A DNA stretch of 45,574 nt from Planctomycetaceae bacterium (GTDB lineage Bacteria; Planctomycetota; Phycisphaerae; Phycisphaerales; SM1A02). Positions 8,609-39,832 of the stretch are shown here, in pieces (the stretch's first letter is position 1; each line of letters opens with the position of its first letter). The position numbers and the translations under genes are program-made. Below the pieces are notes generated by a model, which worked only from the letters and a program-made list of their open reading frames with translations, did no database searches and was not told where the DNA came from. The stretch is from contig JAJTGK010000018.1 of assembly GCA_021297815.1 (NCBI GenBank), positions 1-45,574 of the forward strand, read 5' to 3'.

Positions 8609-8637
8609 AGTGTAGCACACTTCGCCGTTCCGACCAA
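8609..8637 (-). promoter_or_regulatory. typA promoter
   Basis: Minus strand: TTGGTC (8637-8632), 17-nt spacer, TACACT (8614-8609) with an extended TGC before it. The sequence TGCTACACTTG is shared with the rnpB promoter at 16343. Confidence 0.65.
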
Positions 8638-16342: not shown

Positions 16343-16371
16343 AGTGTAGCAGCGGCTTGGGAGTGGGCCAA
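16343..16371 (-). promoter_or_regulatory. rnpB promoter
   Basis: Minus strand: TTGGCC (16371-16366), 17-nt spacer, TACACT (16348-16343) preceded by TGC. It places the transcription start at about 16336, within a few bases of the predicted RNase P RNA 5' end. Confidence 0.7.
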
Positions 16372-30975: not shown

Positions 30976-31078
30976 GGACCGCGCGCGTTGCGCGCGCGCC
31001 CTCGCGAGACTGTGGAACGGGGCGACCCAGTGCCTGCGGACTGGGCACCCGCCGGCCAAAGGGCCGGCGGCGACGGCG
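30976..31078 (+). repeat. Hairpin repeat, left arm, copy 1
   Basis: A string of three self-complementary segments: GCGCGC...GCGCGC, then CCCAGT / ACTGGG (31026-31045), then GCCGGCC-AAA-GGGCCGGC (31051-31068). A near-identical arm occurs at 39833-39930. The middle hairpin recurs in inverted orientation in the right arm at 31165-31343. Bases 31079-31164 between the arms hold no gene I can support. Confidence 0.8.
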
Positions 31079-31164
31079 GTGGGTTCTGCGTCGAGCCTCC
31101 GCATCAGGCATGACGCCGTGAACTACAGCGAACCGATCGTGAATCGGACGACCCGAACCGATCT

Positions 31165-31343
31165 CGGCACGACGCCGTCGCGCGCAGCGCGGCGGGTGCC
31201 CAGCCCGCAGGCGCTGCGTCGCGAGATCCCGCAGTCTCGGCACGGCGCCGTCGCGCGCAGCGCGGCGGGTGCCCAGCCCGCAGGCGCTGGGTCGCGAGAT
31301 CCAACAGTCTCGGCACGATGCGTCGGGCGAAGCCCGACGGTCA
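31165..31343 (-). repeat. Hairpin repeat, right arm, copy 1, with 73-bp tandem duplication
   Basis: Read on the minus strand it begins with the waaA stop TGA (31343-31341), then the hairpin CGTCGGGC-TTC-GCCCGACG (31339-31321), the CCCAGC / GCTGGG hairpin and a GC-rich hairpin ending GACGGCG. The latter two hairpins are present twice as 73-bp direct repeats (CGGCAC at 31165, 31238 and 31311). The other copy is at 40015-40112. The first hairpin may act as a terminator for waaA. Confidence 0.85.
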
Positions 31344-36100: not shown

Positions 36101-37040
36101 CGCGCTGCGACGCACGATCTCCGCCATGCCCGCGCAATCGCGCCTTACGACGCGCATGCTCGACGACGGCACGCCCATCCTCGCGGCCGTCGCGGTCGCC
36201 GACGGACGCATGTCGATCGGCCTTTCGAGCCCCGTCGATCGGCATCCCCGCAACTTCAACGCGCCGTTCGCCGTCACCCAGGCCGCGACGATCTACGCGC
36301 TCAGACTGCTCGTCGACGAGCCGATCCCGATGAACGAAGGCCTGCTGCGCGCGGTCGAACTGCGCGTCGAGCCGTCGATGCTCTCGCCCGCGTTCGAGGC
36401 GGACCCCACGCGCTGCCCACCCGTCGTCGCAGGAAATGTCGAGACGAGCCAGACCGTCGTCGCACTGCTCCTCGAGGCGTTCCGCCTGTGCGCCGAGAGC
36501 CAGAGCACGATGAACAATGTGCTCTTCGGCGACGCGCGCTTCGGCGTGTACGAGACGCTCGGCGGCGGCGCAGGCGCTGGGCCGTACGCGCACGGCGCGA
36601 GCGCGGTGCATGTGCACATGTCGAACACGCGGCTGACCGATGTCGATGTGCTCGAGCGACGCGCGCCCGTCGTGATCCGCGAGTTCCGCGTGCGCCGCGG
36701 TTCGGGCGGCCATGGCGCGTGGCGCGGAGGCGACGGGCTGGTGCGCGGCTACGAGTTCCGCGCGCCCGTCTCGCTGTCGTTCTTCGGCTCGCGCCGCGTG
36801 TTTCCCCCGCTTGGCCTCGCGGGCGGCTCGAACGGCATGTGCGGCACGCAGAGCGCCGTCATCGCAGGCGTGGCGCAGCGGTGCGACGGCGCGGTCCTCT
36901 CGCTCGAACTCGGGATCGGCGACCGCTTCACCGTCGAGACTCCTGGCGGCGCAGGGTTCGGGAATCCCGAGGACCCGCTGTCCTCGCTCTCCTCCAACGG
37001 CGACCTGGTCGTCGACCTCGACACCAGCGCCGCGCCCTAG
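33189..37040 (+). CDS. 5-oxoprolinase / N-methylhydantoinase, fused A and B subunits
   Basis: A 1283-residue ATP-dependent cytoplasmic hydrolase of the hydantoinase/oxoprolinase superfamily. Residues about 15-720 are HyuA-like, with actin-type ATPase motifs: DTGGTFTDLVAI (19-30), FDMGGTSSDVT, and FGGAGGQHAC. Residues about 750-1280 are HyuB-like, with HLPVHLGALG, NHPAFGGSHLPDVT, HHAEIGGTRPGS and GNVETSQ. The same fusion and length are seen in eukaryotic-type 5-oxoprolinase (OPLAH), which opens 5-oxoproline to glutamate, so that is the likeliest reaction; a hydantoin substrate cannot be excluded. ATG 33189 is very close to the divergent tlpA start. Its TAG stop shares three bases with the ymdB stop. 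Confidence 0.9.
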   Translation: MPDPSANLTPACKWRIALDTGGTFTDLVAIAPDGSVHRAKIPSDGSLVGSVRTSSDGAGLRFVAAGGVALPDGFLVGWRVHGERFTAEVRAHHGDLLELDRTVAATPGLPLRFTASHLAIDSPRLGIHLLTVTPLDQALPPVEMRLSTTRGTNALLEGKGAKVGVLVSAGLSGIVEIGDQTRDDLFARVPAPRRSLAQAVHELPERTLADGTEEARATRAEIAHAVELLRQEGCDAFVTSLAHALVDDGRERDIAHTIAFMGARSIAASRVAPHARLLTRTETAIVTARIAPSIESFVADAGATAPSGSRVLLFTSAGVLQSSGIYEARDTLFSGPAGGAVAVCALARRHGLARAIGFDMGGTSSDVTRAEHGRVALRHETRLARSTVAAPALAIDSVAAGGGSICRARDGALEVGPESAGSSPGPACYGRGGPLTVTDVNLLVGRSAAALGAMPLDRGAAERALAEVAATRGTTAEETLSALLDIADARMALAIENLCVRDGVDARGGEHGERSHTLVAFGGAGGQHACSIASRLGLARIVFPHAAGFMCATGVAQAKPTRMQSAPVLAPLAGNMPAVLAAREAALEDAEQRLASDGFVAKDAAVATVALRLVGQEASIEVPLGDEATMTAAFRARFERLFGYAPPPRAIEVEAVRVEVESDAATTWADTPRGRDTACEEHAPQRMWSAGAWHVARVLNRAQVAAGATVEGPAIIADIGDTAVIDAGWRAVMDASGDLVAERTAPPPPRTSTAEAELFSARLESIALGMGHVLERTALSPNIRDRFDFSCAVLDAQGLLVQNAPHLPVHLGALGVCTRAVMGALELGEGDIAVTNHPAFGGSHLPDVTTVAPVFVDGRRVAFVAVRAHHAEIGGTRPGSFPPDARSLAEEGVVLPPFHAVRAGAFDAAAARARFADAPYPSRNPDENLADLMAQIAATRHGVEAVRALAAELAPERFARRCEGELDRAERALRRTISAMPAQSRLTTRMLDDGTPILAAVAVADGRMSIGLSSPVDRHPRNFNAPFAVTQAATIYALRLLVDEPIPMNEGLLRAVELRVEPSMLSPAFEADPTRCPPVVAGNVETSQTVVALLLEAFRLCAESQSTMNNVLFGDARFGVYETLGGGAGAGPYAHGASAVHVHMSNTRLTDVDVLERRAPVVIREFRVRRGSGGHGAWRGGDGLVRGYEFRAPVSLSFFGSRRVFPPLGLAGGSNGMCGTQSAVIAGVAQRCDGAVLSLELGIGDRFTVETPGGAGFGNPEDPLSSLSSNGDLVVDLDTSAAP

Positions 37041-37867
37041 CGCTGCGGCACCACCGCGCGAAGATGAATGCGTTCGATCGACCGCGCGCGGCCGCTTGCG
37101 AGATCGACCTCGACAAGCGCCCCCTGCACGGCCTCGCCGCCCGAACCCATGTCGAACGGCACATGCACGCCCGTCGTGAAGTGCTTCAGCACGGCCTCGG
37201 TGCGGCGCCCGATCACGCTGTCGTGCGGGCCCGTCATGCCGACATCGGTCTGGAACGCGGTGCCCCCGCGAAGGATGCGCTCGTCGGCCGTCGGCACATG
37301 CGTGTGCGTGCCGAGCACGGCGGCCACGCGCCCGTCGAGATGATGCGCAAGCGCGGCCTTCTCGCTCGTCACTTCCATGTGCGCCTCGACGAGCACGATC
37401 GGATGGCGCTCGGGCATCGCCGCAAGAAGCTGGTCGGCGCATTCGAACGGATCGTTCGCCTGCGGTGATCCCATGTGCACCCGGCCGAGCACTGTGAACA
37501 CGAACACATCGCGCGGGCAGCGCGCGTCGGCAGGGATGCGCACCATGCGCTTGCCTGGCGTGCGCGCCGAGAGGTTCGCGGGACGGCACACCGCCTTCGA
37601 CGGGTCGTCGAGCAGCGGAATGATCTTCGTCTCGCGGAACGCGTGGTCGCCGAGCGTGAGCGCGTCGATGCCCATGCGGCGAAACTGGTCGTGGAGCTCG
37701 GGCGTCAGGCCCGACCCTGCGCGCGCGTTCTCGGCATTCGCGACGATGCGGTCGGGCGCGTACCGCTCGACGAGCACGGGAAGCTGCTGGTCGAGCGCCA
37801 TGCGGCCGGGAGCGCCATTGATGTCGCCGAGGAAGGCGATGCGAACGGTTCCCTTGTCGGCTGGCAT
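37037..37867 (-). CDS. ymdB: YmdB-family metallophosphoesterase
   Basis: A 276-residue calcineurin-like phosphodiesterase of the YmdB group (2',3'-cyclic nucleotide phosphodiesterase in Bacillus). Motifs: FLGDINGAPGR near the N-terminus, NAENARAGSGLT, LGDHAF (usually GNH), EAHMEVTSEK, and the strong GTHTHVPTADERIL followed by GMTGPHDSVIG. The GNH to GDH change alters one metal-site residue. ATG 37867 is chosen, with TACCTT 7 nt upstream; the TTG codon at 37876 would be a longer start. The stop codon TAG overlaps the oxoprolinase stop in the palindrome CTAG, so the two convergent genes share three bases. Confidence 0.88.
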   Translation of the reverse strand: MPADKGTVRIAFLGDINGAPGRMALDQQLPVLVERYAPDRIVANAENARAGSGLTPELHDQFRRMGIDALTLGDHAFRETKIIPLLDDPSKAVCRPANLSARTPGKRMVRIPADARCPRDVFVFTVLGRVHMGSPQANDPFECADQLLAAMPERHPIVLVEAHMEVTSEKAALAHHLDGRVAAVLGTHTHVPTADERILRGGTAFQTDVGMTGPHDSVIGRRTEAVLKHFTTGVHVPFDMGSGGEAVQGALVEVDLASGRARSIERIHLRAVVPQR

Positions 37868-37874
37868 CGCGGGC

Positions 37875-37880
37875 AAGGTA
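37875..37880 (-). promoter_or_regulatory. Candidate -10 box of ymdB
   Basis: TACCTT on the minus strand, 7 nt before ATG 37867, with no Shine-Dalgarno sequence. Confidence 0.35.
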
Positions 37881-37947
37881 GCGGCTCGGCCGAGCGCCTC
37901 GACATGGTGGTTTTCTGCTTCTTCTCAAAGAAATCAGTTCCAGCCCC

Positions 37948-37978
37948 TTGCAATGGCCGATGCTCTGTGTGCTACAGT
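37948..37978 (+). promoter_or_regulatory. Candidate promoter of the structured RNA
   Basis: TTGCAA (37948-37953) and TACAGT (37973-37978) preceded by TGC, with a rather long 19-nt spacer. Transcription would begin at about 37985, at the first predicted helix. The -10 resembles those of typA and rnpB. Confidence 0.5.
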
Positions 37979-37984
37979 GCCCGC

Positions 37985-38250
37985 GTTCAAGCAAGTGAAC
38001 TGGGCCTGAGGCTGATCAGGGCGTAAGTGCGCCCGGTCGGTGCGCTTCCAGTCCACGCTCGTGCGGCCTCGATGGGCCGCGTCGGCATCCCCCTCTTCCG
38101 CGCGCGTTTCCGTGCTGCAGAAAGATGCGGGCTACCGCTGAGATGGCGTGGAGCGCACACCCGACAGGATGTCCCGACGCCTTCTGCGTCCAGGGAGCCC
38201 CACAACAGCCCACGGAGTCGCAAACGCGATCCGATGTTCACCGCTTGAAG
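37985..38250 (+). ncRNA. Candidate structured RNA of unknown class
   Basis: The ends pair over 230 nt: TTCAAGC-AA-GTGAAC (37986-38000) with GTTCAC-C-GCTTGAA (38236-38249). Inside, GTGCGC and TCCACGC (38040-38045, 38052-38058) pair with GCGTGGAGCGCAC (38146-38158), leaving a six-base bulge. Local hairpins: GGGCG/CGCCC (38019-38034), GCGGCC/GGCCGC (38063-38080), GCGCG-TTTC-CGTGC (38102-38115), GACGC/GCGTC (38176-38190) and TCGC/GCGA (38218-38229). A promoter sits at the 5' end. I looked for SRP, tmRNA and RNase P signatures and found none; a 6S-like RNA or a long leader of the DUF3553 gene starting 60 bp downstream are options. No reading frame here looks real, so 37881-38309 is otherwise empty. 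Confidence 0.6.
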
Positions 38251-38309
38251 CCTCATGCGCGCCGCGCAGGAACCATCCGCCCAGGGCGGACCGTCGAAGA
38301 CAACCGCCA

Positions 38310-38908
38310 TGTACACGCAAGGCATGCAGCTCAGGCATCGCCAGCGCCCCGAATGGGGCTCGGGAAGCGTCACGCGCGTCGAGACCCTCACCCGCGGAAC
38401 CTCGCGCGACCAGCGTCTGTGGATCCGCTTCGCGAACGCGGGCCTGAAGTCGCTGCTCGCCAGCGCCGCCGACCTCGAGGTCGTCGAGGGGACGGGCGCC
38501 GCCGAGCACACCTTTGCGGCGCGTGAAATTGCCTCCGAAGGCGGCTGGCTCGGCCAGATCGCGAAGCGCCGCCCCGAGCAGGCGATGAGCGAACTCCCCC
38601 CCGAAGCGACCGACCCGTTCCTGACGCCCGAGCGTCGGCTCAAGAACCTGCTCAGCCTGTTCCGCTACGACGGCGGACCGAAGCTGATCGACTGGGCCGT
38701 GGCCCAGAGCGGCCTCGACGACCCGCTGTCGCGCTTCACGCGCATCGAGCTCGAGGCGTTCTACAAGCTCTGGTCCATGGAGCGCGACCTCACGCTCTCG
38801 CGGCTCGTGGGCGAGTTCCGCCGAAAGCGCGAGCCTGTCGACCACCTGCTGGCCGAGGCGCCGAAGTCGGCGCTCGCGCTGTTGCAGAAGTTCGACAGGG
38901 CGCGCTGA
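38310..38908 (+). CDS. DUF3553-like conserved hypothetical protein
   Basis: A 199-residue soluble protein. The N-terminal 50 residues (MQLRHRQRPEWGSGSVTRVE, then RLWIRFANAGLKSLL) resemble DUF3553, a small beta-barrel-like domain of unknown role. The rest is mainly helical, with an arginine- and leucine-rich C-terminal half (TRIELEAFYKLWSMERDLTLSRL). The function is unknown. ATG 38310 is preferred because it starts just before the recognisable domain; an in-frame ATG at 38255 would begin just 5 bases after the structured RNA. A terminator follows at 38971. Confidence 0.75.
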
Positions 38909-39109: not shown

Positions 39110-39415
39110 ATGGACGAGATCAGCTTCCAGGACAAGATGAACCAGATCCTCGAGAGGATTCGGGAACTGCCCGGCACCACCACCGCCGCGGCCGCGGACG
39201 GCGCCGAGGCGCGTCGCGAACGCGTGCAGTCGTCGGTGAACGAGCTGCAGGACGCGCTCGACTACCTGCGCCTGAGCGTGAAGTACCTGGTGTTCGATCT
39301 CGAGGCGACGCGGCGCGAGAACGCGTACCTGCGCCGCATGATCGAACAGTCGAACCGCGAGCGCGGCCAGAAGCGCGACGACGAGAACCCCGGCGAGCAG
39401 AACGGCTGGGAGTGA
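39110..39415 (+). CDS. Small coiled-coil protein under sigma-54 control
   Basis: A 101-residue acidic, strongly helical protein, not recognised. After an opening MDEISFQDKMNQILERIREL and a short alanine-rich linker, residues about 37-86 form a continuous coiled-coil-like helix (ERVQSSVNELQDALDYLRLS, then ENAYLRRMIEQSN), and the C-terminus is charged (KRDDENPGEQ). No signal peptide or membrane segment is present, so it is probably cytoplasmic and self-associating. ATG 39110 follows CGGAG at 39097-39101. A textbook sigma-54 promoter lies upstream at 39032. Nothing else is coded until 40110, so it stands alone, followed by a hairpin-rich untranslated region. Confidence 0.8.
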   Translation: MDEISFQDKMNQILERIRELPGTTTAAAADGAEARRERVQSSVNELQDALDYLRLSVKYLVFDLEATRRENAYLRRMIEQSNRERGQKRDDENPGEQNGWE

Positions 39416-39787
39416 TCCGCGCGCGGTGTGAAACGAACTTCCGTGAGAGGGTTGCGAGAGAGAGGGATCGCGACCGATCGAACTTGGACCCGCTTCGGCG
39501 GGAGACGAACCTCTGGGAAAGGGGCCGCCGGCTTGACCGGCGGGACACGCCCGGCATGGGCACGCCGAATGGGCTTGAGGGAGCCGTTCGTCGTGGCTGG
39601 GCAACCGGCGAACCAGCTTGAGGGAGCTGCTCGCCGTCGTGAGGGAGGGTGACGCGCCTGAGGGGGCGCGATCACCCATTCGTGTGCATGTGTGACTGGT
39701 GTGTGACTCCGAGGCTTGTGTTGTCTGAAGACATGTGTGTGGGCCGATCCAGTGACCGAGCCGTCGCAAGACGGCTCGGTTGCGTTT
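39416..39787 (+). ncRNA. Hairpin-rich RNA region (3' UTR or small RNA)
   Basis: About 370 bp without a credible gene but with serial stem-loops ending in a strong terminator. Three hairpins share the loop TGAGGG on different stems: GGCT/AGCC (39572-39585), CAGCT/AGCTG (39614-39629) and CGCGCC/GGCGCG (39653-39670), the last extended by GGGTGA/TCACCC (39647-39677). Others: CCGCCGG/CCGGCGG (39525-39543), GTTCG/CGAAC (39586-39613) and TGTC-TGAA-GACA near 39723. Five further GGA triplets lie between 39416 and 39545. The layout recalls CsrA-sequestering RNAs, in which AGGGA or ANGGA is shown in loops. Whether it is a separate transcript or the tail of the sigma-54 transcript is unknown. Confidence 0.5.
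39755..39787 (+). terminator. Strong terminator ending the hairpin-rich region
   Basis: An 11-bp stem ACCGAGCCGTC / GACGGCTCGGT closed by the stable GCAA tetraloop, then TGCGTTTT. Confidence 0.8.
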
Positions 39788-39832
39788 TCGGCGAGGGGCG
39801 ATGCCCGATGGTTTTTTGATCGAGTCGGTTCG

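Follow-up and report, generated by a model that had tools for sequence, protein, structure and literature searches.

Two kinds of described bacterial RNA are the closest counterparts of the DNA between ymdB and a DUF3553 gene in a metagenome-assembled planctomycete genome of the SM1A02 lineage: 6S RNA (RF00013), a molecule of similar size with a closing helix at its ends, and the long 5' untranslated mRNA leader, in which a promoter is followed by several hundred untranslated bases of poorly conserved sequence and then by the gene. The stretch in question, positions 37985-38250 of a 45,574-nucleotide window (the whole stretch of DNA that was analysed), had been described in a first-pass annotation as a long-range paired RNA, which might be an undescribed small RNA, a divergent 6S RNA or a cis-regulatory leader of the DUF3553-like gene. 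As a yardstick we used rnpB (RNase P class A, RF00010), which lies in the same window behind a promoter of the same extended -10 type. We consider it quite probable that the DUF3553 transcription unit simply begins with this stretch as an ordinary 5' leader that evolves fast. The leader shares the organization of other long bacterial leaders, but in this genus its length is considerable for a gene this small, and it changes unusually fast; our literature search found nothing on such a DUF3553 leader.

The ymdB gene (37037-37876, minus strand), identified by synteny and by its YmdB-like metallophosphoesterase domain (PF13277, E 2.9e-81), is divergently oriented with respect to the DUF3553 gene (38309-38908, plus strand, with an alternative in-frame ATG at 38255), which matches both PF12073 (E 1.6e-6) and the PcrA/UvrD tudor family PF21196 (E 1.1e-5). 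Behind it on the plus strand lies an ORF of 101 amino acids (39110-39415), which matched no Pfam or NCBIfam family and is 72-78% identical to its counterparts behind DUF3553 in congeners; it probably belongs to the same transcription unit. As for coding potential in the candidate stretch, none of the ORFs overlapping it matched a Pfam family. Of the 101 family genomes searched, 95 have DUF3553, and so do 14 of the 16 genus genomes, the window's own included. A divergent ymdB adjoins it in every family locus checked, and the order of ymdB, promoter and DUF3553 is kept in 13 of 15 congeners. The two genus genomes that lack DUF3553 (G008 and G009) also lack ymdB, suggesting that the locus is most likely missing from them through genome incompleteness.

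Motif searches and comparison of the congener loci identified a predicted promoter at 37948-37978 on the plus strand, comprising TTGCA (37948-37952) and the extended -10 TGCTACAGT (37970-37978). The combination TTGCA-N(11-17)-TGNTACANT has a single match in the window and none in 100 shuffles. Even TGNTACANT by itself is found at only three sites (8609-8617 and 16343-16351 on the minus strand and 37970-37978 on the plus strand; 0.22 expected by chance), which precede typA, rnpB and DUF3553. The first-pass annotation was right in likening this -10 to those of typA and rnpB, in that GTGTGCTACAGT (37967-37978) matches GTGTGCTACACT of typA and resembles GCTGCTACACT of rnpB. All 14 genus loci have an equivalent promoter at the same position, consisting of TTGCA (TTGAT in two) and then TGNTACACT. 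The window's version differs from these in having TACAGT instead of TACACT and in its spacer, which is longer by about 4 nt. Other genera of the family also retain the promoter next to ymdB, and there the leader can measure as little as 68 nt. The conserved promoter beside ymdB is always directed at DUF3553, and neither the genus loci nor the other genera of the family have a second conserved promoter closer to that gene. Judged by these sequence comparisons, the promoter is that of DUF3553. Transcription from it would start about 7 nt past the -10 and continue through the DUF3553 gene, producing a leader (37985-38308, plus strand) that holds the proposed helices. We found no terminator-like site in 37870-38400, and the unit ends at a conserved terminator at about 39795. 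The earlier proposal of a cis-regulatory leader stands as to location, and any regulatory role would be a putative one.

The helices of the first-pass annotation are present in the sequence. The 13-bp helix joining the two ends (37986-38249, plus strand; arms 37986-38000 and 38236-38249) is composed of 37986-37992 paired with 38243-38249 (7 bp) and 37995-38000 paired with 38236-38241 (6 bp), the two being separated by a 2x1 internal loop, and is contained in the minimum free energy (MFE) fold. The second 13-bp helix, which has a six-base bulge (38040-38058/38146-38158), pairs 38040-38045 with 38153-38158 and 38052-38058 with 38146-38152, and local hairpins fit between the long helices as claimed. 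Both arms of the end-to-end helix can also form local hairpins. In particular, its 5' arm, GTTCAAGCAAGTGAAC, is a hairpin by itself (GTTCA-AGCAAG-TGAAC, 37985-38000, plus strand), which in a fold of the first 45 nt competes with the long-range pairing, and the congeners likewise fold locally at this place.

To gauge such pairings against chance, we counted helices with 13 or more Watson-Crick pairs that fall into two runs of at least 5, separated by a small internal loop, and that span 200-300 nt. The window has 22 of these versus 12-22 (mean 18.4) in eight dinucleotide shuffles. Of shuffles of this 380-nt stretch alone, 2.3% have such a helix. The feature was, however, selected from 45 kb, and at this rate one is readily turned up by a scan of that length. 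In duplex energy, the long-range pairing is equalled or surpassed at 44% of the window's start positions. The MFE of the stretch is -123.8 kcal/mol (z -2.74), which was equalled in 1 of 200 shuffles. Among 334 tiles of equal length (272 nt, both strands), 6.9% reach this z-score, each tile's z being a noisy estimate from 16 shuffles, and 52% reach the MFE. Hence, the folding energy of the stretch is only mildly low and its MFE unremarkable among the tiles of the window. The strongest-folding tile is 31009-31280 on the plus strand (z -8.1, -170.6 kcal/mol). The helices are therefore real as letters yet at chance level for GC-rich DNA. In a genome as GC-rich as this one, chance alone yields a 13-bp helix over 200-300 nt in roughly every 2 kb, so that where conservation is lacking such helices are no ground for calling an RNA gene, and the analysis removes one candidate new RNA.

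The relatives provide the second line of evidence. BLAST with a 311-nt stretch found no match in 12 congeners, and a nucleotide search of relatives and plasmids returned nothing matching the candidate stretch. The first-pass annotation had suggested searching related genomes with a covariance model; a model of its exact fold found no homologue in 15 congeneric genomes or in the syntenic loci, and its best match elsewhere (E 0.05) was at an unrelated place. In contrast, the positive control rnpB was recovered in 14 of the 15 congeners at 71-87% identity. Ten congeneric 5' leaders folded jointly with RNAalifold had no base pairs in common, and there was no alignable homologue in which pairs could be counted. 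From promoter to gene the genus leaders measure 326-988 nt, and what can be aligned is limited to the promoter, the gene start and, within one subclade of four, the initial ~55 nt; a full-length leader alignment was obtained only for the near-identical pair L035/L036. Short tandem repeats are found in the leaders of L004, L005, L033, L034, L035 and L036, such as GAGTTTCGAGCTCG in L004, ATGCAATGATC in L005 and GACAGCCTTTGAATT in L036. On the reading that we prefer, the leader in this genus is long and evolves fast by substitution together with short-repeat turnover, and its long-range pairings are chance products of GC-rich sequence that are not kept.

The part of the leaders nearest the promoter shows somewhat more structure. 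The first 110 nt of the genus leaders have a mean z of -1.80 versus -0.47 for the rest (one-sided p 1.6e-4, an optimistic value given that the leader sequences are related), and this mild excess may be real. Four congener leaders have in common a 20-nt block, GAAGAGTTGCGCGGTCGGTG, in their 5' part, one of them with two changes. The block lies within a two-hairpin element of 68 nt with an invariant GAAGAGTTGCGCG, present at the DUF3553 leader locus of each of these four congeners (L005 884-950, plus strand; L037 2515-2579, L039 2542-2608 and L040 2659-2727, minus strand). It is the only hint, seen in sequence comparison, of a functional RNA part in DUF3553 leaders, some of which may carry a real element.

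These observations bear on a structured regulatory leader, in which hairpins in the first 100-165 nt would control termination, stability or translation of DUF3553 while their shape changes quickly between species. The 5'-proximal excess of folding stability across the 14 genus leaders and the 68-nt element speak for it, but a covariance model of that element has no match in the window's leader or in nine other genus loci, only 1 of its 16 pairs has a two-sided change, the ten leaders have no consensus fold and leader length varies threefold. We accordingly regard such control as rather unlikely. Still a little less plausible is the proposition that the genus DUF3553 genes have a 5'-structured regulatory leader, one form of which would be found in the window, and that this leader keeps its position and folding propensity while each species comes to have a different sequence and shape. 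Under the reading that we prefer, an ordinary leader whose transcript is made from the conserved extended -10 promoter beside the divergent ymdB, at most the 5'-proximal 100-165 nt would be under weak pressure for local hairpins, which might serve, for example, in protection of the mRNA 5' end or in tuning of translation.

A species-specific small RNA gene, in which the promoter would give rise to a separate RNA of 265 nt with the 13-bp helix closing its ends, would account for an rnpB-like promoter at the right distance and for the MFE z of -2.7. It is nonetheless very unlikely, as no terminator lies near 38250, the closing helix is at chance frequency, the congeners have neither a homologue nor a conserved extent, and across the family a promoter of this kind serves DUF3553. 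Moreover, leaders down to 68 nt in other genera rule out a 265-nt RNA as the conserved unit, and the undescribed small RNA of the first-pass annotation, understood as a conserved structured unit of this length, fell for want of homologue and conserved extent, with no alignable sequence to show covariation. At gathering level nothing in Rfam matches the candidate stretch, in keeping with the earlier statement that it has no signature of RNase P, SRP RNA or tmRNA, and a search of 37870-38320 to E=10 gave a single chance match, which lay at the edge of the opposite strand. The length and end-to-end pairing do recall the rod of 6S RNA, but RF00013 has no match here even at E=10, and a better candidate is encoded elsewhere in the genome, on a different contig; a divergent 6S RNA at this place is scarcely credible, and we rejected the stretch as such.

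That candidate, the likely 6S RNA of the genus, lies on the minus strand at G000:C178:20532-20660 (about 1411-1686 of L048) as an RF00013 match of 27.4 bits, below the cut-off of 46.4 bits. Matches at a similar level occur in 11 of the 16 genus genomes. In the seven genus genomes compared the candidate is syntenic and 68-87% identical over its core, and its ends are closed by a 30-nt inverted repeat, as in the 6S rod. A conserved RNA is much more likely at this locus, and at a second one behind the 101-amino-acid ORF, than in the stretch between ymdB and DUF3553.

This second locus (39416-39795, plus strand; core 39741-39788), 1.5 kb downstream of the candidate stretch, is the hairpin-rich end of the unit comprising DUF3553 and the 101-amino-acid ORF (z -4.77). 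No Rfam family scored above its cut-off here. The loops read UUGAGGGA/UGAGGG, and the element ends in an invariant GGGCCGAUC(CAG) followed by a terminator stem. In several congeners a hairpin with a GAGG-containing loop precedes GGGCCGAUC and the stem. The other copies of this 12-mer in the genus that were fetched have no such stem behind them. Across 13 sequences, each of the 14 pairs of the terminator stem has compensatory changes, and 93.8% of the stem's cells are paired versus 69.5% in shuffles, a level reached in 0 of 500 shuffles. The element is kept at the same place in the congeners and in two loci of other genera. On these comparative grounds it appears a far better RNA candidate than 37985-38250, and a good candidate for an undescribed small RNA or 3' element, possibly a protein-binding RNA with a CsrA-like GGA loop.
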